64,000 bases of DNA from Pacificispira spongiicola (GTDB lineage: Bacteria > Pseudomonadota > Alphaproteobacteria > UBA8366 > Aestuariispiraceae): contig NZ_JABBNT010000001.1 in NCBI RefSeq assembly GCF_012926505.1, forward strand, positions 558,001 through 622,000. Direction: 5' to 3'. The notes beneath the pieces are model-generated. The model was not told the DNA's origin. It saw only the letters and a list, made by a program, of their open reading frames with translations, and searched no databases. A program made the position numbers and the translations under genes. Below are positions 51,935 to 64,000 of this stretch, piece by piece; position 1 is the stretch's first letter; each line of letters opens with the position of its first letter.

Positions 51935-52444
51935 TCACGCCATCGGCGCGCGACTGGCGTCATTATTCGCTTCGACCAGACGACGGATGAAGTCCATGAA
52001 CTGCCCCTGTTCGTCCTCGGAGAGCGGGGCCAGCAATTTCTCCTGTGCCCGTTCCATGGCCGGGCGCATGCCCCGGACGAGTTCCCGGCCTTCTTCGGTG
52101 ATGCGGACCACCTTGGCGCGCCGGTCCTGCTCGGACGGTTCGCGCGACACCAGTCCCCGCCGGACCAGACGCTTGAAAACATCCGCGCCGCTCGTGCGGT
52201 CGATCCCGACCGCCTTCGACAATGTGTGCTGGTCGAACTGATCGCCGTTATAGAGTACCGACAGCACGGCATATTGAACGGCCGTGAATTCCTTGGAGTT
52301 GCATTCCTCGGCAAACAGGCCGACATGAATTTGGTGTAGCCGCCGGATCAGATATCCCGGACGCCCCCAAAGATTGTTATATTTCGGCTGCCCCAGCGGG
52401 CTTTCGAGAACGTCATCGATTTTCGCATGACGGTTGCTGATCAT
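51935..52444 (-). CDS. MarR family regulator (PicR-like position)
   Basis: A 169-residue winged-helix regulator. The N-terminal helix (GYLIRRLHQIHVGLFAEE), recognition region (TLSKAVGIDRTSGADVFKRL) and the wing (PSEQDRRAKVVRITEEG) are complete. ATG 52444 has GGAGG upstream. It diverges from the molybdenum hydroxylase operon. MarR proteins in pyridine-carboxylate clusters usually repress and are released by a pathway intermediate; that role is inferred here. Confidence 0.9.
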   Translation of the reverse strand: MISNRHAKIDDVLESPLGQPKYNNLWGRPGYLIRRLHQIHVGLFAEECNSKEFTAVQYAVLSVLYNGDQFDQHTLSKAVGIDRTSGADVFKRLVRRGLVSREPSEQDRRAKVVRITEEGRELVRGMRPAMERAQEKLLAPLSEDEQGQFMDFIRRLVEANNDASRAPMA

Positions 52445-52468
52445 GACCTTCCTCCACACAAACCCTAT

Positions 52469-52742: not shown

Positions 52743-55094
52743 ATGACCTCCGGCATTGGTGAACGCGTTCTGCGCAAGGAAGATGCCCGGCATCTTCGCG
52801 GAACGGCGCAGTTCGTTGGCGATATAAAGATCGCCGGATGTTGGGAGGCGGCCTTCGTCCGCAGCCCGCTCGCCCATGCGCGAATCCGCGGCATTGAGAA
52901 ACCGGATGGGCTTGAGTCCCGGGTATTCGTCGCAGCGGATATGCCTGATGTGCTGCCCATCCGCGCGGAATCGAGCCTGCCCAGCTATAAGCAATCCGAC
53001 TATCCCGCATTGGCGAAAGACAAGGTGCGCTATGTCGGGGAATGTATTGCGATCTGTATTGCGCCGACACGCGCCGAGGCGGAAGACATCGCAGAATCGG
53101 TGAGGGTCGATCTTGAGCCGCTGCCGCCGGTGGCGTCGATCGATACGGCACTGGAGAAAAACCCGCCCCTTCTGCACGAGGAATGGGGCGACAACCTGTT
53201 CCTGACCACCGAATTCAACAGCGACCTGAGCGAGGCGAAGAAAAATGCCGCGGTCGTAATCGAGCGGGAATACAACACGGCCCGCCAGTGCATGAATCCG
53301 ATGGAAGGCAAGGGCGTGCTCGCCCATTGGGACACGAAATACGACCAATTGGTCGTCTACACCTCGACCCAGGTGCCACATCTGATCCGCACCGGTATTT
53401 CCCAATCGCTGCAGCTCGATCAGGCGGATGTCCGCGTTGTCGCGCCGGATGTCGGCGGCGGCTTTGGATACAAATGCGTGCTGCAGCCAGAGGAACTTTC
53501 GGTCGCCTGGACCGCCCGGCATTGCAATCGCCCGATCCGCTGGACCGAAGACCGCCGCGAGCATCTCACCGCCGGTGCGAATACGCGCGAACACCGCTAC
53601 AAGCTGAAGGCCTATGCCGACAAGAACGGTCGGCTTCTGGGTGTCGATGCGGATATCTGGGTCGATATCGGCGCCTATTCCGTCTGGCCGTTCACGGCCT
53701 GCCTGGAAGCGGCGCAGGCTGGCGGCAATCTGCCCGGCCCGTATGATCTGGGCGCCTATTCCTGCCGGACCTATTCTGTCGCGACGAACAAACCGGCCTT
53801 TACACCCTATCGCGGCGTGGCCCGCCCGGGCGTCTGTTTCGCGATGGAACTGACCATTGATGCCATCGCGCGCGCCGTCGGCAAGGATCCGCTGGAAATC
53901 CGCCGTCTCAATCTCGTCCAAGCGGAGGCAATGCCCTACACCAACATCACCGGCAAATTCTACGACACGGGCGACTACCCGTCCGCAGCGGTGCAGGCCG
54001 CCGACATGATCGGTTTCGACACATTCCGCAAACGCAAGGAAGAGGCCGCGCGTGACGGCCGGTTCATCGGTCTTGGCCTCTCTTCCTTCACTGAGCAATC
54101 GGCCCACGGGACAAAGGTCTTCGCCGCCTGGGGTCTACCGCTCGTCCCCGGCTACGAACAGGCGATGGTCAAGCTGACGCCGTCAGGCTCCATCGAAGTG
54201 AAATCCGGGAACCATTCTTTTGGCCAGGGGCTCGAGACAACCCTGGCTCAGGTCGCCTGCGACTGGCTCAAGGTCGATATCGACCGGGTCAAGATCGTCA
54301 TGGGCGATACCGGTCTCACCCCCTATTCGACCGGGGCCTATGCCTCCCGCGGCATGGTGATGGCCGGCGGTGCGGTGTCAAAGGCATCGGAAGAGCTGGT
54401 GCGGCGACTCCGGATCCACGGTGCCCATCTGCTGCAATGCGATCCGGAAAAAACGGAAATAAAGGATGGCCGTGTCGTCCATGGCCAGGCTTCCGTCTCC
54501 TTCGCCGAGATCGCCGACGCCTGGTACCTGCACCCCGATCGTCTGCCGGATACTGTCAACACGGCGGGGCTTGAGGTTACCGAGGGCTACAAGCCGGACA
54601 TCGACACAGGCGTTTTCACCTATGCGACCCATGCGGCGATCGTCGAGGTCGATCCGGATACCGGCCGCGTGGAAATCCTGGATTATGTGATTTTCGAAGA
54701 TTGCGGCCGCCGCGTGAACCCGATGATCCTCGACGGCCAGTCCTATGGCGGCGCGGCGCAGGGGATCGGCACCGCCCTGTTCGAGGAGACCCTGTACGAT
54801 TCCGGAGGCCAACCTCTGACCTCCACGCTGGCCGATTATGTCCTGCCGGGACCGTCCGAACTGCCGTCCTTCCGGCTGGGCCACAGCGAGTCGCCCTCTC
54901 CGTACACACGGCACGGCATCAAGGGCGTCGGTGAAGGGGCGGCCATCGCGCCGAGCGGCGCAATCGTCAACGCGATCAATGATGCGCTCGCCCCTCTCGG
55001 CGCTGAGCTCACACAGATCCCGGCAACGCCGCATCGCGTTCTCGAAGCAATCTTCGAGGCGAAGGAACAGAATCGAGCAGGAGCGTCGGCATGA
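52743..55094 (+). CDS. Xanthine-dehydrogenase-family molybdenum hydroxylase, large subunit (picA-like)
   Basis: A 783-residue molybdopterin-binding subunit: GIGERVLRKEDARHLRGTAQFVGD start, VVAPDVGGGFGYK, PYRGVARPGVCFAMEL and the C-terminal GVGEGAAIAPSGAIVNAINDAL with the catalytic Glu. The AYRCSFR motif of true CO dehydrogenase is absent. By position it should hydroxylate a pyridine carboxylate next to the ring nitrogen (picolinate to 6-hydroxypicolinate). ATG 52743 starts the operon; the stop overlaps the FAD subunit start (ATGA). Confidence 0.9.
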   Translation: MTSGIGERVLRKEDARHLRGTAQFVGDIKIAGCWEAAFVRSPLAHARIRGIEKPDGLESRVFVAADMPDVLPIRAESSLPSYKQSDYPALAKDKVRYVGECIAICIAPTRAEAEDIAESVRVDLEPLPPVASIDTALEKNPPLLHEEWGDNLFLTTEFNSDLSEAKKNAAVVIEREYNTARQCMNPMEGKGVLAHWDTKYDQLVVYTSTQVPHLIRTGISQSLQLDQADVRVVAPDVGGGFGYKCVLQPEELSVAWTARHCNRPIRWTEDRREHLTAGANTREHRYKLKAYADKNGRLLGVDADIWVDIGAYSVWPFTACLEAAQAGGNLPGPYDLGAYSCRTYSVATNKPAFTPYRGVARPGVCFAMELTIDAIARAVGKDPLEIRRLNLVQAEAMPYTNITGKFYDTGDYPSAAVQAADMIGFDTFRKRKEEAARDGRFIGLGLSSFTEQSAHGTKVFAAWGLPLVPGYEQAMVKLTPSGSIEVKSGNHSFGQGLETTLAQVACDWLKVDIDRVKIVMGDTGLTPYSTGAYASRGMVMAGGAVSKASEELVRRLRIHGAHLLQCDPEKTEIKDGRVVHGQASVSFAEIADAWYLHPDRLPDTVNTAGLEVTEGYKPDIDTGVFTYATHAAIVEVDPDTGRVEILDYVIFEDCGRRVNPMILDGQSYGGAAQGIGTALFEETLYDSGGQPLTSTLADYVLPGPSELPSFRLGHSESPSPYTRHGIKGVGEGAAIAPSGAIVNAINDALAPLGAELTQIPATPHRVLEAIFEAKEQNRAGASA

Positions 55095-55915
55095 AACCCG
55101 TCGGATTCACGCATTCATTCCCGGACACCGGCACCGATGCAGCAGCGGCGCTGAAAGCCGCCGACACAAAGATCATCTCGGGTGGGCAATCGCTCGGCCC
55201 GATGCTGAACCTGCGCCTCGCCCGTCCGGCAAGCCTTGTCGATATCGGCGCCATCGCCGCGTTCAAGGATATCCGTATTGAGAAAGATACGCTCATCATC
55301 GGCGCCGCGGTCACCCATGCCCGGATCGAAGACGGCGACAGCCCGGTGCCGCTGCCCGCCATGATGCGGAGCGTTGCACACAACATCGCCTATCGGGCGG
55401 TGCGCAATCGCGGCACGATCGGTGGCTCCCTCGCACATGCCGATCCGGCCGCCGACTGGGTCACGACGATGACGGCAATCGGCGCGGAACTGACACTGGT
55501 CAATGCCGCGGGCGAACGCCGCCAGATGGCGATGGGCTCGTTCATGCATGGCGCCTATCGCACGGCCCTGAACGCGGACGAGATCATTGAATCCGTCTCT
55601 GTTCCGGTGGGGCGCGGCGATGCCCATTGGGGCTATTACAAGGTCTGCCGAAAGGTCGGTGAATTCGCGGACGCCATCGGTGCCGCGGTTTTCGACCCCA
55701 CCCGGCGCTATGCCCGGATCGTCGTCGGCGCCACGGGCGGCGCGCCGCTTATTCTGGATGAGTTGGCCGTCGAGACGGCGCGCAGCGCAATGCTTCCGAA
55801 AGACGGCCGGATCGAAGAGATCCTGGCACGGGAACTGCCCGACGCGGATCGGGTGAAACGACACCTTCTGGCCACGGCGACCCGGCGCGCCCTCGAAAAG
55901 GTACTTGCAAAATGA
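55091..55915 (+). CDS. Molybdenum hydroxylase FAD-binding subunit (CoxM-like)
   Basis: A 274-residue FAD subunit with the two flavin loops GGQSLGPMLNLRLARP and NRGTIGGSLAHADPAADW. It passes electrons from the Fe-S clusters. Both ends overlap neighbouring genes by 4 nt, so the three subunits are translated as a unit. Confidence 0.92.
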   Translation: MKPVGFTHSFPDTGTDAAAALKAADTKIISGGQSLGPMLNLRLARPASLVDIGAIAAFKDIRIEKDTLIIGAAVTHARIEDGDSPVPLPAMMRSVAHNIAYRAVRNRGTIGGSLAHADPAADWVTTMTAIGAELTLVNAAGERRQMAMGSFMHGAYRTALNADEIIESVSVPVGRGDAHWGYYKVCRKVGEFADAIGAAVFDPTRRYARIVVGATGGAPLILDELAVETARSAMLPKDGRIEEILARELPDADRVKRHLLATATRRALEKVLAK

Positions 55916-57057
55916 GCAACATCCAACCCACGCCGATCACCCTGACCGTCAACGGGCGGAAAGCGACCGTTCTGGCGACGCCGCGGACGCAACTGGCCGA
56001 GGTCCTGCGCGATCAGATGAATCTGACGGCCACGCATCTCGCCTGCGAGCAGGGAGTCTGCGGCGCCTGTACGGTGCGGATGAACGGACGCCCCGTGCGA
56101 TCCTGTCTGACATTCGCCAATAGCTGCGACGGCGCCGAGATCGAGACGCTGGAAGGATATGACGGGGACACGCTGATGGACCGTCTGCGCGAAGCCTTCA
56201 ACCGGAACCATGCGCTTCAATGCGGATTCTGCACGCCGGGCATGCTGGCGACATCCCGCGACATCGTCGCCCGTCTTGAAACACCGGATGAGGCGGTCAT
56301 TCGCCACGAATTGTCGGGTAATCTGTGCCGCTGCACCGGCTATATGGGAATCGTCGACTCCATCCGGCAGGTAATCGAGGAACGCAATGCCCTGGGCATT
56401 GCCGCCGAACCGGCCGCCTCTTTCCCTGAGCCGGACGCGGCCGGCTTTACGCCCTTCGAAGCGGAGGTCACCGCGGCCGAAAAACCGGAAGCCGGCGCCG
56501 CGCAGGGCAAAACCGTCATTCAGGACGGATGGACCGTCGTCAGCCGCCGTGTCACGCTCGACCATGCGCCAGATGCTGTCTGGGACCATTTCAGCGACCT
56601 CAATGCGGTCGCCCGCTGTCTGCCGGGTGCGGAACTAACCGGGCATGATGCGGAAACCTTCGCCGGTTTCGTCGCCGTGAGCTTCGGCCCGATCAAGGCC
56701 AAATTCGAGGGCGAAGGACACTATACTTTCGACCCCGCCACCCATACGGGACGGGTCGAGGGTCGCGGCAAGGACCGCGGCGGCCAGTCCAATGTCGAAG
56801 GCCACATGACCTATTCCGTGCACCCGGCGGAGAGCGGCGACAACAGCGCCGTCGATGTCGATTTCAAGTTCCGAATCGAAGGCCTTCTCGGCCAGTTCAA
56901 CCGGCCCGAACTCGTCAACGGTCTAGTCAATCACATCCTCGCGGAGTTCACCGCGAATTGTGACGCCGTCCTGTCCGGTGGCGAGGTTCGTGAAAGCCGC
57001 GGCGTGAGCGCCTGGGCCCTCTTGCGCAGCCTGATTGTATCCCTGTTCAAAAAGTAA
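55912..57057 (+). CDS. 2Fe-2S subunit fused to CoxG-like SRPBCC domain
   Basis: A 381-residue fusion. Residues 1-160 form a complete CoxS-type subunit with one 2Fe-2S set at Cys45, Cys50, Cys53, Cys65 and a second at Cys104, Cys107, Cys139, Cys141. After an Ala/Pro/Glu-rich linker (about 165-200), residues about 205-350 match CoxG (SRPBCC): DHAPDAVWDHFSDLNAVARCLPGAEL and VSFGPIKAKFEGEGHY. It ends in a hydrophobic tail (SAWALLRSLIVSLFKK) that may touch the membrane. CoxG is normally a separate protein that helps membrane attachment or maturation. Confidence 0.9.
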   Translation: MSNIQPTPITLTVNGRKATVLATPRTQLAEVLRDQMNLTATHLACEQGVCGACTVRMNGRPVRSCLTFANSCDGAEIETLEGYDGDTLMDRLREAFNRNHALQCGFCTPGMLATSRDIVARLETPDEAVIRHELSGNLCRCTGYMGIVDSIRQVIEERNALGIAAEPAASFPEPDAAGFTPFEAEVTAAEKPEAGAAQGKTVIQDGWTVVSRRVTLDHAPDAVWDHFSDLNAVARCLPGAELTGHDAETFAGFVAVSFGPIKAKFEGEGHYTFDPATHTGRVEGRGKDRGGQSNVEGHMTYSVHPAESGDNSAVDVDFKFRIEGLLGQFNRPELVNGLVNHILAEFTANCDAVLSGGEVRESRGVSAWALLRSLIVSLFKK

Positions 57058-57150: not shown

Positions 57151-57684
57151 TCAGACGGGTAGCACCAGGGCGTTCGCCACCAGCAGCGTATCGTATACGG
57201 CGATGCGGGACTTCAGCAGCAGCCCGCCATCGCTTTGCGGCTCGAACCGGTCAAACAGGCGGCCGGCCTGATGCAGACGGCCATCGGGCACATCCATCAG
57301 AACTTCCAGCAGTATGTAATTCGATTGCGCACAGATCGTGCCGTCCGCCTCAATCCCCGTAACCCGCGTATTCGTGATAAAGTGGCGCAGGAACCGTGGG
57401 CCGAACATCGATGTCTTGCTCACGGCCAGAGCCCGATCGCGCATCATGGCACGGCTCTCGCAGTAGACGAGACCGACCGGCATGCCGCGATCGAAATTCT
57501 CGCGTGCGGTGATGTTGTAGAAACCGTCCTCCGTGAAGAAATCAGGCCAATCCTCGAGAGCGCCATCGTCGAGAACGGCGCAATATTCGGCGTTGAACTC
57601 CTCAATCGCCAACCGCGCTTCGCGGCGCGCTTCCCGTGTGTCCAGCGGTGACCCCACCGAGTTTTCCTGAGCATCCATGGTCAT
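57151..57684 (-). CDS. Aromatic-ring-hydroxylating oxygenase beta subunit (picB4-like)
   Basis: A 177-residue small subunit with the SnoaL-like cone fold (RLAIEEFNAEYCAVLDDGALEDWPDFFTEDGFYNIT) and the RVTGIEADGTICAQSNYILLE strand. It has no cofactor and holds the alpha subunits together. It starts one base into the stop of the fused alpha/reductase gene (TGATG), giving fixed stoichiometry. The GTG three bases earlier is an alternative start. Confidence 0.9.
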   Translation of the reverse strand: MTMDAQENSVGSPLDTREARREARLAIEEFNAEYCAVLDDGALEDWPDFFTEDGFYNITARENFDRGMPVGLVYCESRAMMRDRALAVSKTSMFGPRFLRHFITNTRVTGIEADGTICAQSNYILLEVLMDVPDGRLHQAGRLFDRFEPQSDGGLLLKSRIAVYDTLLVANALVLPV

Positions 57685-60503
57685 CACAATCCCATCTCCT
57701 GACGCCAGTATTTGTACATCGCGCGAATGGCCGCCTCTGAAATCAGCGTGTCCGACGTGCCGGCGGGCACCTCCGGATCGAGTGCGATCAGATGCTCGCC
57801 CTTGCGCGTGTTCAGCATGCCGTCCTGCACGAATTTGATGGCCTCGTTGTCTTCCATGCCGAGATAGCCGGCCGGCCCCATCAGATTCCCCTGCCGCAGA
57901 CGGTGCCGCGTCATTTCCTCGTCGTCGTCCTCATAACCGAACATCGTCCAGACCATGGTGAACTCGTTAGGGCCGGTCGGGTTGATCTGGCGCACGCCCA
58001 GCGTATTCATCTCGCGCTGAACGATCAGGTTCGGCCAGACGACCTGCATCGTGACTGACCACGGGCTGTCGAATTCGGGCACGAAATCCATCATGCGCGG
58101 ATCTTCCAGCGTCATCCCGTCGCGATAGGCCCGCATCTGCGATTTATCCTCGTCCGACACCTTACCGGCATCTGACTTGGCAGAGGCCATGGTCGAATGC
58201 CGGCCTTTCGGGTCAACGATCATCGCCGACTTATTGCCCGCCACCAGCAGACCGAAGGTCACCAGGAACGTATGCAACAGCGTCGCGTGATACGGGTCCT
58301 TCAGATTTTCCGGATAAAGCTTCCAGTTTCCGCTCAGCGTATGCCGGTAATGGCCGAGGACCTTGATCTTGCGACCGGAAAATACCGCGTCAAAATCCTT
58401 CAGCATGTCCTCCCCGAGATAGTCTTCGACGCTTTCCATATCCGACGCGAAGGAAGCGAAGATCGCGCCGTTTCGCGTGGCAACGGACAGGCACCGCAAC
58501 CCGTGTTTCTCGGGCTGGAAATCCGGCCCCATTCCGCCTTTACCGGCAGCGCCGCGACGGAACGGGATGCCGGCCAGATTCCCCTTCAGATCGTAACTCC
58601 ACTGGTGATAGGGACAGACGAATTCGTCCGTATTGCCGTGCAATTCCCGGCAGAACTCTGCGGCGCGATGGGCACACCGGTTTTCGAAAACATTGATCCC
58701 CCCGTCCTCGTCGCGCGACACGACGACGGCGGTCGGGCCGACATAGGACCGGATGAAGTCACCGGCATTGGGAATTTCCGCTTCCAGACCGACATAGTTC
58801 CAGGTCCTGCCGTGGAATATCCGCTCGACTTCCCGGTCGAAGATTTCCTGATCGGTATAAACCCAGTCCGGTATCCGTTCGAGGCCCGTGGCCGGCCAGA
58901 CGAAGCGTTTCTCCAGCGGAATTGTCTTCATGTCATCCTCGTTCAATTGGGATAGATCGACGTCCCGATCCGTCAGTAATGCCGGGGAAAGCTCGGTCCC
59001 TTCCAGCATCAGGCTTCGCGCCGCCTGGATCGCTTTCGGCTGGCCGAAATCGACGACCAGTTCAATGCTCCCCTCTTCATTGAGCCCGAAGAATACCGGC
59101 GCCTGTCCTCCGTCACGGCGGACAAGGGTCAAACCGTCACGCATTTGCCCCAGCATCTGGACCGTCCCGCCGAACAGGTCGGACCAGAACCAGGGGAGAT
59201 CGATGCTATGATCGGCCGCCCCGGCAATCGCCATGCCGGTCGACCGGGCCGTCAGATTGGCGTTCTGCCAGCTCTCCAGACGGTGTTCGCGGCCGGAAAT
59301 CTCATCACGATGCACGGCGACATCGCCGACCGCGTAGATCGCCGGGTCCGATGTCCGCCCGATTGGGTTGACGAGGATGCCGCCGCGCTCGGCGACGGCC
59401 AGCCCCGCTTCGCGCGCCAAGGCGTCATTCGGCACTGCGCCGATACCGACCACGATGCAATCGGCGGCCACCATGCGACCGTCGTCGAGCATAACTCCCT
59501 CCCGGGATACGGCGGCGGTCGTGTGCCCCAGTTCCAGCGCCACGCCGTTTGCCACCGCCAGCTCCTGCATGTATCCGGCAGCCTCTTCGGGCAGAAGCCG
59601 TCCCATAAGGCGGGCCGCAGCTTCGATCACGGTGACATGCTTTCCCAGCTTCCGGGCAGCGGAGGCGATTTCGAGTCCGATAAATCCGCCGCCGATCACA
59701 GCAACCTGTGTCGCTTTACGCAGAGCCTCGCCAAGAGATTTCGCATGCCGCAGGTTACGCAGATAGAAGAGCGAAGTTTCGTCGCTGCCGGTGACGGAGA
59801 GTTCCCGAGCCCGAGCACCGGTTGCCAGTACAAGCATGTCATAGGAAAGCTGCCGGCCGTCAGAGAGAGAAACACGCCGTGCCTTCCGGTCAACGCCGGA
59901 CACCTGAATACCATTCAGGAGTTCAATCTTCAGGGCGTCCAGTTCCGCGGCGCTGTATATCGTCGCTTCGTCCAGACCGGACTCGCCCATCAGCATACCC
60001 TTGGACAGCGGCGGACGCTCGTAGGGAAGAACCGGCTCATCGCCAATCAGGGTAATGGTACCGGCAAAGCCATTCTGACGCGCGGCAACGGCGGTTTCGA
60101 CACCGGCCTGTCCCGCGCCCACGATAAGCAGCGCCCTCGGATCCTCCGGCATGCTTTCCGTGTGCTCCGGCGCCGCGTCCGTCTCGGCAAGGCGGGAATC
60201 GGTATCGACCCAGACCTGACCATCGCGGATGTCGACCGCGTAGGTCGCGATGTCCTTGGTGACCGGCGTGCCCTGGGCCTTACCGGTACGGATGTCGAAA
60301 AGCCCCTGGTGTAGCGGACATTCCACGCAGCCGTTTTCGACATGTCCGTCGGTCAGCAGCGCGAAGGCATGCGTACAGATATTGCCGGTCGCATGGATGT
60401 CTCCGTCGAGCGAGAACAGCGCGATGCGCAGCCCGTCCACCTCGACGCCCACCGCACCCTGCGTATGGACGTCAGCCGCCGGGATTGATTGAAACCAGGC
60501 CAT
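57684..60503 (-). CDS. Fused Rieske ferredoxin - ferredoxin reductase - oxygenase alpha subunit (picB-like)
   Basis: A 939-residue single protein holding a whole electron chain. Residues 1-105 are a Rieske ferredoxin (Cys43, His45, Cys62, His65). Residues about 123-510 are an FAD/NADH ferredoxin reductase with GAGQAG (129-134), GGGFIG (271-276) and AVGD (391). From Met525 there is a full oxygenase alpha subunit: Rieske site Cys610, His612, Cys630, His633, then NxxDxxHxxxxH with Asn733, Asp736, His739, His744. The known picolinate PicB system uses four separate proteins. The frame is unbroken and GAGG lies 5 nt before codon 525, a relic of a separate gene. Confidence 0.93.
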   Translation of the reverse strand: MAWFQSIPAADVHTQGAVGVEVDGLRIALFSLDGDIHATGNICTHAFALLTDGHVENGCVECPLHQGLFDIRTGKAQGTPVTKDIATYAVDIRDGQVWVDTDSRLAETDAAPEHTESMPEDPRALLIVGAGQAGVETAVAARQNGFAGTITLIGDEPVLPYERPPLSKGMLMGESGLDEATIYSAAELDALKIELLNGIQVSGVDRKARRVSLSDGRQLSYDMLVLATGARARELSVTGSDETSLFYLRNLRHAKSLGEALRKATQVAVIGGGFIGLEIASAARKLGKHVTVIEAAARLMGRLLPEEAAGYMQELAVANGVALELGHTTAAVSREGVMLDDGRMVAADCIVVGIGAVPNDALAREAGLAVAERGGILVNPIGRTSDPAIYAVGDVAVHRDEISGREHRLESWQNANLTARSTGMAIAGAADHSIDLPWFWSDLFGGTVQMLGQMRDGLTLVRRDGGQAPVFFGLNEEGSIELVVDFGQPKAIQAARSLMLEGTELSPALLTDRDVDLSQLNEDDMKTIPLEKRFVWPATGLERIPDWVYTDQEIFDREVERIFHGRTWNYVGLEAEIPNAGDFIRSYVGPTAVVVSRDEDGGINVFENRCAHRAAEFCRELHGNTDEFVCPYHQWSYDLKGNLAGIPFRRGAAGKGGMGPDFQPEKHGLRCLSVATRNGAIFASFASDMESVEDYLGEDMLKDFDAVFSGRKIKVLGHYRHTLSGNWKLYPENLKDPYHATLLHTFLVTFGLLVAGNKSAMIVDPKGRHSTMASAKSDAGKVSDEDKSQMRAYRDGMTLEDPRMMDFVPEFDSPWSVTMQVVWPNLIVQREMNTLGVRQINPTGPNEFTMVWTMFGYEDDDEEMTRHRLRQGNLMGPAGYLGMEDNEAIKFVQDGMLNTRKGEHLIALDPEVPAGTSDTLISEAAIRAMYKYWRQEMGL
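58931..58944 (-). promoter_or_regulatory. Internal ribosome-binding-like site at the reductase/alpha junction
   Basis: On the minus strand GAGGATGAC precedes the ATG of codon 525 (58931-58929), the natural start of an alpha subunit. It may be a remnant of the unfused state or allow extra alpha subunit to be made. Confidence 0.45.
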
Positions 60504-60509
60504 GACGCC

Positions 60510-61484
60510 TCACACTTTCCCGGAAAGGAGCGGCAGACCGAAGAGACGCGCAGCATTGTCGTGACAGACATTGCGTCGGGTCTTTTCGTCCAGAGGCGCC
60601 GACTCGATAAACTCGACCGCCGCCCCGCTATCCTCGTAAGGGTAGTCGACGGAGAACATGACCGCCTCGTCTCCCATTTCGCCGATCGCGCCGAGAAGCG
60701 ACGGATGGGAGCAGACACCGGAGGTCGTGATCACGATGTTCCGGCCAAAATAGGCGGACGGGGCCCGATCCAGGGTCACGCCCATGGGATAGGCGCCAAA
60801 GCGGCTGTCGTACCGCCATCGCAGAAACGGCAGGGCTTCCCCCATATGACCGAGCGCAACACGCACTTTCGGGAAACGGTCGAAGACGCCGCCAAACAGG
60901 AGGCGTAGCGCGTGGCTGCCCGTCTCGACGCCCCAGCCCCAGGTCGCCCCATACAGAACCGGATGCCCTTCCAGGACATAGGGATTGGCATAAGCGTTGG
61001 TCGGGTGGAGGTAGAAGGGCACATCAAGCGACGACAGTTCCGCCCAGAAGGAATCGTATTCCGCCCCTTCGTAATAGGTGCCATGCGTATGCCCGTTCAC
61101 GAGGCACCCGAGGAATCCAAGCTCCTTCACGGATCGCCGCAGCTCGGCCGCGGCGGCATCCGGGTCGTGCATCGGCAGGGCCGCGAGACCGCTGAACCGG
61201 TCGGGTCGGGACGCAATCTTCCCGGCTAGAAAGTCATTCGCCTTGCGGGCCGCCTCGACCGCATTGTCCGGCGCTTCTCCCTGAACGCCCGGCCCGGTCA
61301 GAGACAGAATGGTGCGAACGATATTTCCCTTGTCCATCAGGTCGAGACGCTCGCCTTCGAAGTCGTTGAGGCGGCGCATCAGGATCTCGGCCTGATCGGC
61401 GGGAATGAGCTTCAGAAAGGCCGCGGAATACTGCTCGAATCCCGGCGCCATGAAATGCTCTTCAAAAGTTATTTTCGGGGTCAT
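60510..61484 (-). CDS. picC: Amidohydrolase-family decarboxylase (3,6-dihydroxypicolinate decarboxylase-like)
   Basis: A 324-residue ACMSD/gamma-resorcylate-decarboxylase type TIM barrel. Metal and catalytic residues are visible in KITFEEH, FYLHPTNAYA, VALGHMGEALPF and FSVDYPYED. These enzymes remove a carboxyl group without oxygen, here expected to turn 3,6-dihydroxypicolinate into 2,5-dihydroxypyridine. Its need is explained by the 2-carboxyl of picolinate and it argues against a nicotinate route. Six nt separate it from the fused oxygenase gene. Confidence 0.85.
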   Translation of the reverse strand: MTPKITFEEHFMAPGFEQYSAAFLKLIPADQAEILMRRLNDFEGERLDLMDKGNIVRTILSLTGPGVQGEAPDNAVEAARKANDFLAGKIASRPDRFSGLAALPMHDPDAAAAELRRSVKELGFLGCLVNGHTHGTYYEGAEYDSFWAELSSLDVPFYLHPTNAYANPYVLEGHPVLYGATWGWGVETGSHALRLLFGGVFDRFPKVRVALGHMGEALPFLRWRYDSRFGAYPMGVTLDRAPSAYFGRNIVITTSGVCSHPSLLGAIGEMGDEAVMFSVDYPYEDSGAAVEFIESAPLDEKTRRNVCHDNAARLFGLPLLSGKV

Positions 61485-61594: not shown

Positions 61595-62218
61595 TCAGGA
61601 GAGTGAGTCGAGATAGCTCAGAATATCTTTTGAATCAGTAACGTCTGCATATTTTTGCGCCATGTCATACAGATTGGCGTCGTGCGGTGCGACGGCACGG
61701 TCGCCGCAACAATCGCCGGGCACGAGCACATTGAAACCGGACTGAACGGCATCGACGACCGTTGCCCGGACGCACCCGGAAGTTGTCGCACCGGTCACAA
61801 TGGCGGTATCGACCCCGCTGCCGGTGAGAAGGCCCGCGAGGTTGGTGCCGAAAAAAGCGGACGCGCCATGTTTCACGATCACCGGATCCCCGGGTTCGAT
61901 CCCGGTCGCCGCGTCGATCTCGACGAGTCGCGTTCCCTGCAGCAGGGCCGCCATTCCCGCCGCCTTTTTGAGCCACGGCAGGGCCCCGACTTCCCAGGGC
62001 TGGTAGGCGATCGTGGTATAGATTACGGGAAGCCCCATTGCCCGGGCCTTGTCCGTGATACGCCGGGTCGCCGCGATCGGCCCGGACATCTCCGCGGCTG
62101 TCGGATATTGCGTGTCCGTAAAGCCATAGGTGAAATCCACAACGATGACCGCCGGGCGCGTGCCGCGCGGCACGGACTGTCCAAAGCCCGCATCCGAATA
62201 GACTTTTTGCTGATCCAC
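61595..62218 (-). CDS. picF: Isochorismatase-family maleamate amidohydrolase-like
   Basis: A 207-residue cysteine hydrolase. The catalytic triad is visible as Asp in VIVVDFTYGF, Lys in VIVKHGASAFF and Cys in TSGCVRATVVD. NicF/PicF of this family hydrolyse maleamate to maleate and ammonia, which fits beside a 2,5-dihydroxypyridine dioxygenase. The start is GTG 62218 with GGAAGGAAG upstream. Related nicotinamidase or N-carbamoylsarcosine amidase activity cannot be excluded by sequence alone. Confidence 0.85.
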   Translation of the reverse strand: MDQQKVYSDAGFGQSVPRGTRPAVIVVDFTYGFTDTQYPTAAEMSGPIAATRRITDKARAMGLPVIYTTIAYQPWEVGALPWLKKAAGMAALLQGTRLVEIDAATGIEPGDPVIVKHGASAFFGTNLAGLLTGSGVDTAIVTGATTSGCVRATVVDAVQSGFNVLVPGDCCGDRAVAPHDANLYDMAQKYADVTDSKDILSYLDSLS

Positions 62219-62247: not shown

Positions 62248-63273
62248 TCAGGGACGTTCCGACCGCATTTCAGGAACGGCGATATCGCCGTCCAGCACAA
62301 TCGGCTCATCATCGAGGAACAGCGAACATCCCCGCATCGGAATATCCAGATGGCAGGCGGTATCGTTCGGGCCGCCGAGTTCGTTGTTCGGGCCGGTCGA
62401 GAACATGACATTGCCGTAAAAGCTTCGCAGCTCCATGCCCATGCCGCCGGGGAAGTCGGTCAGCCCGTGCCAGTGCGCCCGCGGATCGAGACCCCAGCCG
62501 ACATGGCTCATCCCCATACCGCGCGGATCGTTGAAGCTCGCCATGTAGGACTTAATCAGCTCCGCATCGAGGCCGCCTCGGATATCCTGAATGAAGCCTT
62601 TCTCGATGGTGTAGGTCACGGGTTCCCGGACATAGGTATTGAATGGCAACAGCACGTCGCCGGGCGCGAGCACGATCTGACCGTCCACTCCGTCATCCGC
62701 AGCGCCGGTAAAGACGAATGTCGCCGGCCAGTGATCCCAACGCCCCGGTTCGTCGGTGCAGCCATACTCGGTGATCGTCGGATAGACGCCGAGACGATAG
62801 GTGACGTCAGTTCCGTGCGGCGAGGTGATGCGCATGGTCTGCGCCTTGGCGAGGATTTCTCCGCCGATCTCGACTTTCTCGCGCAGTTCAGTGGTCGGTA
62901 GCAGTCGAGCGAGAAGCTCCGGCGGTTCGACGGCCGTCAACACCCGTGTCCCGGAGGCCTGGATCGCCATCTGCTCGTCCGAGAAGAGTAGGAAGATGCA
63001 GTCGATCACCATATCCGCCTGCTTCAGTGCCTCGACGGCCTCAGGCAGCGCCGCCAGACCGGTCACGCCAACATTCCATCCACTCACGGGCGGCGGCGAC
63101 GGGAGGCGCATGTGATACATCTGCGCGCCCAATTGCTGACCCGCCGCCAAAAAAGCATCGGCGTAGTCCAATCGGTCCGCGCCCTGAGTCAGAACGATGA
63201 GTTTCTCACCTTCTTTCACGCCCGACATCTTCAACTGATGCAGGCAGATTTCCATAAAGCTGACCTGGTCCAT
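62248..63273 (-). CDS. picD: 2,5-dihydroxypyridine 5,6-dioxygenase (NicX/PicD)
   Basis: A 341-residue M29-like iron dioxygenase that closely follows Pseudomonas NicX: TAVEPPELLARLLPTTE, YPTITEYGCTDEPGRWDHWP, EKGFIQDIRGGLDAEL, SHVGWGLDPRAHW and FSTGPNNELGGPNDTACHLDIP. It cleaves 2,5-dihydroxypyridine to N-formylmaleamate. The His and acidic residues in these blocks include the metal ligands. ATG 63273 has AGGAGG upstream. It is followed by the picF-like gene, 29 nt later. Confidence 0.93.
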   Translation of the reverse strand: MDQVSFMEICLHQLKMSGVKEGEKLIVLTQGADRLDYADAFLAAGQQLGAQMYHMRLPSPPPVSGWNVGVTGLAALPEAVEALKQADMVIDCIFLLFSDEQMAIQASGTRVLTAVEPPELLARLLPTTELREKVEIGGEILAKAQTMRITSPHGTDVTYRLGVYPTITEYGCTDEPGRWDHWPATFVFTGAADDGVDGQIVLAPGDVLLPFNTYVREPVTYTIEKGFIQDIRGGLDAELIKSYMASFNDPRGMGMSHVGWGLDPRAHWHGLTDFPGGMGMELRSFYGNVMFSTGPNNELGGPNDTACHLDIPMRGCSLFLDDEPIVLDGDIAVPEMRSERP

Positions 63274-63311
63274 AGCGCGTCCTCCTGCTGTCGTCATCCT
63301 GTGCCCGACGC

Positions 63312-64000
63312 CTAGCGGGCGCCGAGATCCATCACCGCTTCCAGAAAGCCTTCCAGATTGTCCCAGGGAATCATGTGTCCGGCGTCGGGAACCGTGCGGA
63401 CGTCGATTGTTGGCGCCAACTCCTGGATTTCGGCAACATCCTCATCGAGGATAACCGTTGCCGACCCCGCCCGGACGAGCCGCATCGGGTCCTGCACTTT
63501 CGGCAGATCCTGGTGGATATCGTCCGTATGGAACCCTTCGAAGGCCGTCACGATGGCATCCGTCTGGCAAGTATGCAGCCACTCGGCACGAAGCGCGAGT
63601 TGGTCCTCTGTCCAGGTCGGGCAGAAGGCGCGCATGTCTTCAGCGGAACACCCGCCAACTGCCATTTCGATACTGTCGACATACCAGGGGAGCTTCGACG
63701 GATAAGCCCGGCGACCAGGACCGCTGACCGGCGGGTCGACCAGGATCAGTTGCGAGAATGTGCCCGGCTTCATCCGAGCTGCCCGGATTGCCGTCCGGGC
63801 GCCCATCGAATGCCCGAGGATCACGGGATCGGAAAGGCCCAACGCATCGACCAGGGCAATCGCATCCTCTGCCATCGCATCTAGCGAATAGTCCAATGCC
63901 CCGGCTTGGCTCAACCCCCGTCCCCGCACGTCGAGGACATGAACGTCGAATGCCTCGGAGAGACGCTCCGCGACAAATCCCCAGGTGATCGCCGGCGACG
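63312..64000 (-). CDS. picE: Alpha/beta hydrolase, N-formylmaleamate deformylase-like (5' end outside window)
   Basis: A partial alpha/beta hydrolase running off the window edge. Visible are the GxSxG elbow GHSMG, VHVLDVRGRGLSQ before it and a C-terminal PDAGHMIPWDN with the catalytic His. NicD/PicE of this family removes formate from N-formylmaleamate, the product of the adjacent dioxygenase. The open frame extends to the last base, so the true start lies beyond. Confidence 0.85.
   Translation of the reverse strand, partial: SPAITWGFVAERLSEAFDVHVLDVRGRGLSQAGALDYSLDAMAEDAIALVDALGLSDPVILGHSMGARTAIRAARMKPGTFSQLILVDPPVSGPGRRAYPSKLPWYVDSIEMAVGGCSAEDMRAFCPTWTEDQLALRAEWLHTCQTDAIVTAFEGFHTDDIHQDLPKVQDPMRLVRAGSATVILDEDVAEIQELAPTIDVRTVPDAGHMIPWDNLEGFLEAVMDLGAR

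Follow-up and report, generated by a model that had tools for sequence, protein, structure and literature searches.

A naturally fused ferredoxin-reductase-oxygenase gene, probably encoding a self-sufficient Rieske oxygenase, in a picolinate-type gene cluster of Pacificispira spongiicola

Rieske oxygenases are prized for selective hydroxylation, and the separateness of their redox partners limits both their study and their use. The described picolinate enzyme PicB is encoded by picB1B2B3B4 and has four components (PMC10142695), as had been stated correctly in an earlier note on the DNA considered here; according to an August 2025 review, a self-sufficient Rieske oxygenase has yet to be identified, and engineering is looked to for one (PMC12445004). 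Here we describe a 64,000-nucleotide stretch of the Pacificispira spongiicola genome (contig NZ_JABBNT010000001.1, positions 558,001 to 622,000; the window, always meant at its full length) in which a single open reading frame (ORF) holds an NADH ferredoxin reductase, a carrier and an oxygenase together, and the oxygenase beta subunit alone is encoded by a separate gene. We put at roughly 78% the probability that this is a naturally fused Rieske oxygenase, PicB by gene context, which would be self-sufficient together with its beta subunit and which arose by one fusion; with less confidence, we add that the old start of the alpha subunit may still be used. Our search of the open-licence literature, outside which lie most subscription papers including the original picolinate ones, yielded no report of a natural self-sufficient Rieske oxygenase, and the portions seen of PMC12746152 and PMC9508527 contain no mention of a fused one. 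Every part belongs to a family already known; what is new, as far as could be seen, is their covalent order, the conservation of that order and the retained start.

The ORF comprises 939 uninterrupted codons on the minus strand (57684..60503), with its ATG at 60503 and a TGA ending at 57684. Against the 939-residue chain, Pfam returned Rieske_2 at residues 3-99, Pyr_redox_2 at 125-416, Reductase_C at 438-520, Rieske at 567-649 and Ring_hydroxyl_A at 717-937, the last with 58.9 bits for the alpha part against a cut-off of 24.9. The chain begins with a Rieske ferredoxin domain of about 100 residues (3-104; 60192..60497), in which a CxH...CxxH site is formed by C43, H45, C62 and H65. The alanine-rich linker 1 (residues 105-123; 60135..60191), with a predicted local distance difference test (pLDDT) score below 50 at 105-116 in an AlphaFold2 model, leads to an FAD/NADH ferredoxin reductase domain of the BphA4/TodA type (124-520; 58944..60134), which carries GxGxxG motifs at 129 and 271 and whose closest solved relatives are BphA4, TodA and putidaredoxin reductase (PDB 1d7y, 3ef6, 1q1r). 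Linker 2, with approximate boundaries (residues 521-535; 58899..58943; pLDDT 58 in the block 521-530), connects it to the oxygenase alpha domain (536-939; 57687..58898). There we found a second CxH...CxxH site (C610, H612, C630, H633; 58605..58676) and the mononuclear iron motif N733-D736-H739-H744 (58272..58307). Residues D736, H739, H744 and D885 (57849..57851) are invariant in all 34 of the tri-domain genes described below; we take D885 to be the likely carboxylate ligand, so that the four presumably supply two histidines and one carboxylate for the iron, plus a bridging aspartate. Thus the two complete Rieske sites, the paired Rossmann motifs, the full iron motif and the lack of any stop between the domains, all of which the earlier note had read from the letters, proved correct.

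The closest solved relative of the alpha part is NagG of salicylate 5-hydroxylase (7c8z, 1.1e-130). Foldseek returned 7c8z (TMt 0.92) and 2gqw (TMt 0.91), which correspond to NagGH and BphA4. In NCBIfam the alpha part matches anthranilate 1,2-dioxygenase AndA best, and none of the AndA equivalog cut-offs is reached (AndAc 417 of 750 bits, AndAa 315 of 650, AndAb 105 of 150 and AndAd 118 of 230).

Among different assemblies we found 34 single-ORF tri-domain genes, the window gene included, with lengths of 933-970 residues. Eighteen ligand and Rossmann positions, comprising both sets of Rieske ligands, the iron motif, D885 and five Rossmann glycines, are invariant in 34/34; not among these positions is G134, the last glycine of the first Rossmann motif, which is alanine in 2 of 18 genes. 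Mean pairwise identity is 0.58 for the ferredoxin, 0.48 for the reductase and 0.78 for the alpha domain, and falls to 0.16 for linker 1, whose length ranges from 16 to 34 residues, and to 0.27 for linker 2 (residues 516-535). Even where reductase domains share as little as 34% identity, the frame is intact. Since the linkers drift in sequence and length yet remain in frame, these comparisons speak for selection on the single chain.

Besides the window gene, the 34 include four from the five other searched genomes of its genus (G010-G013), four from the four genomes of family f138, nine from Paracoccus, Mangrovicoccus, Poseidonocella, Loktanella and three further relatives, one of them mislabelled, and 16 from the 391 genomes of family f174; the search for three-domain single chains proposed in the earlier note maps them to several families. 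The architecture, which that note had suggested would be new, is a real one, conserved and found beyond this genome. A family search around Paracoccus luteus (G424) gave the fused gene in at least five of 394 genomes. All genome counts are lower bounds, as family searches scored only the two best candidates of each genome and 80 of 104 loci were kept; from 2892 plasmid records, 40 matches were listed and four of them examined. In f174, 26 of the 391 genomes matched, 16 with the tri-domain gene, eight with a gene lacking the reductase and two (G1300, G1381) with an alpha subunit 55-56% identical. One of the window's congeners with a fused gene, G011, also holds an alpha subunit of the Alcaligenaceae-type group (L097), 49% identical to that of the window.

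The fused genes appear to share one origin. In an alpha tree of 36 domains, 19 rows (18 whole fused genes and a broken copy, G429) form one clade (bootstrap 100, Shimodaira-Hasegawa-like approximate likelihood ratio test [SH-aLRT] 98), and in a tree of 60 rows the 34 fused genes, G429 and eight reductase-less derivatives do so again (100/99). The 18 fused genes are likewise one clade in a reductase tree of 80 rows made by quick search (SH-aLRT 95). The fork around the fused clade in the 60-row tree is unresolved, and we have withdrawn an initial placement of unfused ferredoxin-reductase-alpha operons as its sister clade. Ten unfused rows lie there, four of which are ordered ferredoxin-reductase-alpha-beta (L010 and L011 from Caballeronia, L012 from Variovorax and L148 from genome G129); no ferredoxin or reductase match was found in the stretches read around L147, L149, L150, L151 and L163, and the tenth, L108, is represented by a short stretch only. 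Because the nearest unfused relatives include operons in the same order, one fusion is the simplest history, most likely through stop loss in a ferredoxin-reductase-alpha-beta operon. In Caballeronia SBC2 (L011, 4923-7847) the ferredoxin, reductase and alpha genes share one frame and are split only by stops and short spacers, a layout that could illustrate a route to such a fusion. The window gene groups with those of Paracoccus and Loktanella, away from the copies in its own genus, and the gene cluster has therefore probably moved between lineages.

The fusion has not always been kept, which weighs against the explanation favoured here. Nested in the fused clade are eight genes without a reductase (genera g420 and g426), of which five join ferredoxin and alpha within a single ORF (L187, L188, L189, L190 and L193, that of L187 being incomplete at a contig edge); Pfam gave two Rieske stretches and no reductase on L188 and L193. 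No ferredoxin match was found in L191, L192 and L194, the last on a contig of 3.2 kb, and the assemblies concerned are fragmented (190-990 contigs). As the eight fall in two groups inside the fused clade, it is simpler to suppose that the reductase was lost secondarily; the other reductase genes in these genomes are 34-40% identical. The Mangrovicoccus ximenensis copy (G429; L018, L132, L133), which is not counted among the 34, is broken inside the reductase domain, a further point on the same side. Its two parts share a contig but are oppositely oriented and separated by about 224 kb, the alpha part keeping linker 2 in its ORF, and the break is a rearrangement or a misassembly.

We propose that NADH would reduce the FAD of the fused reductase, and that the tethered ferredoxin, swinging on its loose linker between the FAD and the oxygenase surface, would pass single electrons to the Rieske cluster of an oxygenase domain, either in its own chain or in one next to it. 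In the final step an electron would cross to the mononuclear iron of the adjacent alpha subunit in an alpha3-beta3 assembly; we assign this step to a neighbouring subunit because, in Rieske oxygenases, the distance from the Rieske cluster to the adjacent iron is about 12 A, against about 45 A within a subunit (PMC12445004). The minimal unit should therefore remain a beta-containing hexamer, and the earlier note's path from NADH to the iron within one chain can hold at most up to the second Rieske cluster. NADH, O2 and the beta subunit would suffice, and soluble partners would not be needed. Less confidently, we suggest that translation also still begins in linker 2, giving the full-length chain and a free alpha subunit, and hexamers with fewer reductases than oxygenases.

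This putative internal start is the ATG of Met525 (58929..58931), probably the old start of the alpha gene, with a Shine-Dalgarno (SD)-like GAGGA before it (58936..58940) that is weak in the window itself. On a Paracoccus seriniphilus plasmid the annotated alpha coding sequence (CDS) begins at the linker-2 ATG (L009, 7567), and the ORF runs on upstream with no stop. An ATG is present in linker 2 of 32 of the 34 genes, and in 29 of these 32 the first one has an SD core (GGAG, GAGG or AGGA) 5-15 bases upstream; the same holds for 79 of the 745 in-frame ATGs elsewhere and for 20 of the 34 true 5' starts. The mean anti-SD duplex energy is -8.1 kcal/mol at the first linker-2 ATG, -3.0 at other in-frame ATGs and -6.7 at the 5' starts. 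In 25 of the 34 genes, less than 10% of equal-length stretches elsewhere in the gene are as strong as linker 2, and none of 20000 permutations was, either for all 34 genes or for 12 representatives (below 88% alpha identity); the 34 genes share ancestry, however, so that the permutation numbers overstate independence. Among the 19 Met columns common to at least 17 genes, the linker-2 start has the strongest mean SD energy, with a core in 22 of 23. Under synonymous recoding, 0 of 20000 trials were as strong for the best ATG per gene in 32 genes, and 54 of 20000 for the first ATG in representatives (11 of the 12 have one). A corresponding start in linker 1 was tried and dropped, an ATG being present there in only 3 of 34 genes.

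On the evidence of these sequences, we regard the odds that one gene makes two products, the self-sufficient chain and a free alpha from the nested, conserved linker-2 start, as even. Only a little short of that stands the explanation that nothing but the full-length chain is made, and that the linker-2 start and its SD stretch are a relic or a by-product of acidic (Glu/Asp) codons. Several results lean towards this simpler account and against a start in use. An SD core alone proves little, because Met column 896 also carries a four-base core in 34/34 genes, at a mean energy of only -4.0 kcal/mol. Synonymous tests on single genes are mostly not significant, and much of the SD strength is supplied by the amino acids (a mean of -6.2 of -8.6 kcal/mol by recoding). 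The window site taken alone is not significant, with 19.6% of equal stretches as strong when ATG is counted and 29.7% when ATG or GTG is, and P = 0.49-0.54 by synonymous recoding. Only eight of the 11 representatives have an SD core at the first ATG. Linker 2 of G011 is without ATG and that of G013, from the same subclade, has only an ATG without SD, both having, close by, a GTG accompanied by an SD-like stretch; linker 2 of G1436 has only a GTG, with GAGGAG upstream. A mere relic sits less easily with the retention of start and SD across several subclades in a linker that has drifted to 27% mean identity, with the ranking among conserved Met columns, with the scarcity of ATGs in linker 1, or with the strength that codon choice adds beyond the amino acids among the representatives. 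Two overlapping products could in any case be seen without refuting the fusion.

The remaining alternatives concern the fusion itself, its sufficiency and its substrate. That two or three genes were joined by a sequencing or assembly error is so improbable that we give it next to no weight: on sequence comparison, the window ORF is neither an assembly error nor a product of chance, because homologous tri-domain ORFs occur in other assemblies. The one observation in favour of an artefact is that the P. seriniphilus plasmid record annotates a separate alpha CDS and leaves the first half blank, in a feature table self-described as incomplete; 34 unbroken ORFs from different assemblies and families, with linkers that vary in sequence and length and are always in frame, already refute it, and with it the frameshift or misjoin at the domain junction that the earlier note had allowed for. 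It is improbable, though far less so, that the polypeptide is not self-sufficient in the cell, its tethered reductase and ferredoxin being weak and soluble partners elsewhere doing the work. The genome does hold other reductase-like genes (L002, 39% identity; L003, 32%), and the reductase-less relatives persist after their loss. The AlphaFold2 model (mean pLDDT 87, predicted template modelling score 0.52) predicts the single domains mostly with confidence and leaves open their relative placement, and pLDDT is low at the ferredoxin cluster loop (53 at 41-50) and at iron-site residues 740-742 (below 50), points that count against the favoured explanation as a whole. Against weak tethered domains stand the Rieske ligands and five Rossmann glycines invariant throughout, with the sixth, G134, substituted in the two genes mentioned, and the absence of a second ferredoxin or reductase match (E 1e-8) beside the fused gene in all 34 stretches (5.6 to 19 kb). 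An unlikely but slightly more credible alternative is that the substrate is another hydroxylated aromatic or N-heteroaromatic acid and not 6-hydroxypicolinate. The substrate assignment is based on gene neighbourhood alone, the closest solved structure is a salicylate 5-hydroxylase, and the window alpha lies outside the Alcaligenaceae clade, whose alphas are about 45% identical to it (46% for L025, L031 and L037). In addition, five of the 34 stretches, four of them under 6 kb, have no picA-F-like gene. We nevertheless favour 6-hydroxypicolinate, as PicA-, PicC-, PicD-, PicE- and PicF-like genes flank the fused gene in the window and at several other loci.

These neighbours resemble a picolinate (pic) cluster, and the fused enzyme is therefore most likely PicB, 6-hydroxypicolinate 3-monooxygenase, by gene context. 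The beta subunit gene (57151..57687, minus strand; Ring_hydroxyl_B), the only component that the earlier note had left separate, begins at a GTG overlapping the stop codon of the fused gene. Upstream, the same strand holds genes for a PicC-like amidohydrolase (60510..61484; Amidohydro_2), by context and synteny a 3,6-dihydroxypicolinate decarboxylase; an isochorismatase-fold amidohydrolase, by Pfam and context PicF-like (61595..62218); a PicD-like 2,5-dihydroxypyridine 5,6-dioxygenase (62248..63297), which has no Pfam match and is 46% identical to a Variovorax homologue so annotated; and a PicE-like alpha/beta hydrolase (63312..63998; Pfam, searched from 63929), which is cut by the window edge. 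The plus strand carries three genes for a PicA-like molybdenum hydroxylase (52743-55094, 55091-55915 and 55912-57057, together 52743..57057; MoCoBD_1/2 and Fer2_2). Its small subunit (55912-57057) is itself fused, its 2Fe-2S domains (Fer2_2 at 79-152) preceding a CoxG domain at 217-353. A MarR regulator identified by domain search (51935..52459, minus strand) is PicR-like by place only, and beyond its gene the window contains permeases of the branched-chain amino-acid type. At least one picA-F-like gene was found beside 29 of the 34 fused genes.

Other candidate fusions and records were also considered. A Ring_hydroxyl_A search of 299 genomes (103 matching) gave no other kind of natural Rieske fusion among the matches listed, an incomplete survey in which the three listed frames above 700 residues were read and three of 619-645 residues were left out. 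One of the three (G1082) belongs to the same tri-domain family; the other two were rejected on reading as overlong frames upstream of an ordinary oxygenase. A 1489-residue open frame in G129 was likewise discarded, as L148 has three separate ORFs there, with reductase and alpha in different frames. A transfer to an actinobacterium, suggested by a record titled Enemella evansiae TN21-6 (L019), was rejected and the record treated as mislabelled or contaminated: the 394 genomes of the Paracoccus luteus family search include its genome, G430, and a search of the family around G430 itself gives an overlapping set. On the P. seriniphilus plasmid the feature table is blank for the opening half of the fused ORF (L009, 5991-7566) and gives only the alpha part as a CDS; such partial annotation may be one reason why the architecture was overlooked.

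The 34 natural genes offer ready-made linkers and a ready-made domain order, with unfused relatives as controls; together with the ferredoxin-alpha derivatives, these relatives allow the effect of tethering on rate, coupling and peroxide leakage to be tested. If the gene does make two products, mixed alpha3-beta3 hexamers would carry fewer ferredoxin-reductase arms than oxygenase subunits, in a stoichiometry set by the internal ribosome-binding site. Where free alpha is present, a single arm could supply several active sites, and use of the internal start would mean that evolution did not fix one reductase per oxygenase.

PicB of Alcaligenes faecalis JQ135 and Bordetella bronchiseptica RB50 shares with the window system its pathway step, by context, and the same kinds of component, but has four genes where the window has one fused gene plus beta. 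The Alcaligenaceae loci L025, L031 and L037, which are of the PicB type by kinship and not by name, have the order beta-alpha-ferredoxin-reductase, and their alphas belong to a clade other than that of the fused genes. Closer to the fused clade are the Caballeronia and Variovorax operons (L010, L011, L012) and that of G129 (L148), with the domain order of the fused gene, alphas 60-67% identical and pic-like genes nearby; unlike the fused gene, they consist of separate ORFs. In the NagGH Rieske monooxygenase (7c8z), which contains the closest solved alpha, the chain in the structure is just the large oxygenase component, and the enzyme's ferredoxin and reductase are separate proteins. The BphA4, TodA and putidaredoxin reductases have the fold of the window reductase domain but are stand-alone chains; structures of BphA3-BphA4 (2yvj) and TodA (4emj) are titled as reductase-ferredoxin complexes. 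Oxygenase and electron supply do share one chain in the self-sufficient P450s (P450 BM3, CYP116B), which are heme enzymes with other reductases, whereas the window oxygenase is of the Rieske/non-heme iron type and still has a separate beta subunit. Runda, Miao and Schmidt (2024) reportedly engineered Rieske oxygenase fusions with redox partners tethered to the oxygenase; those are man-made, whereas the fusion in the window is natural and conserved.

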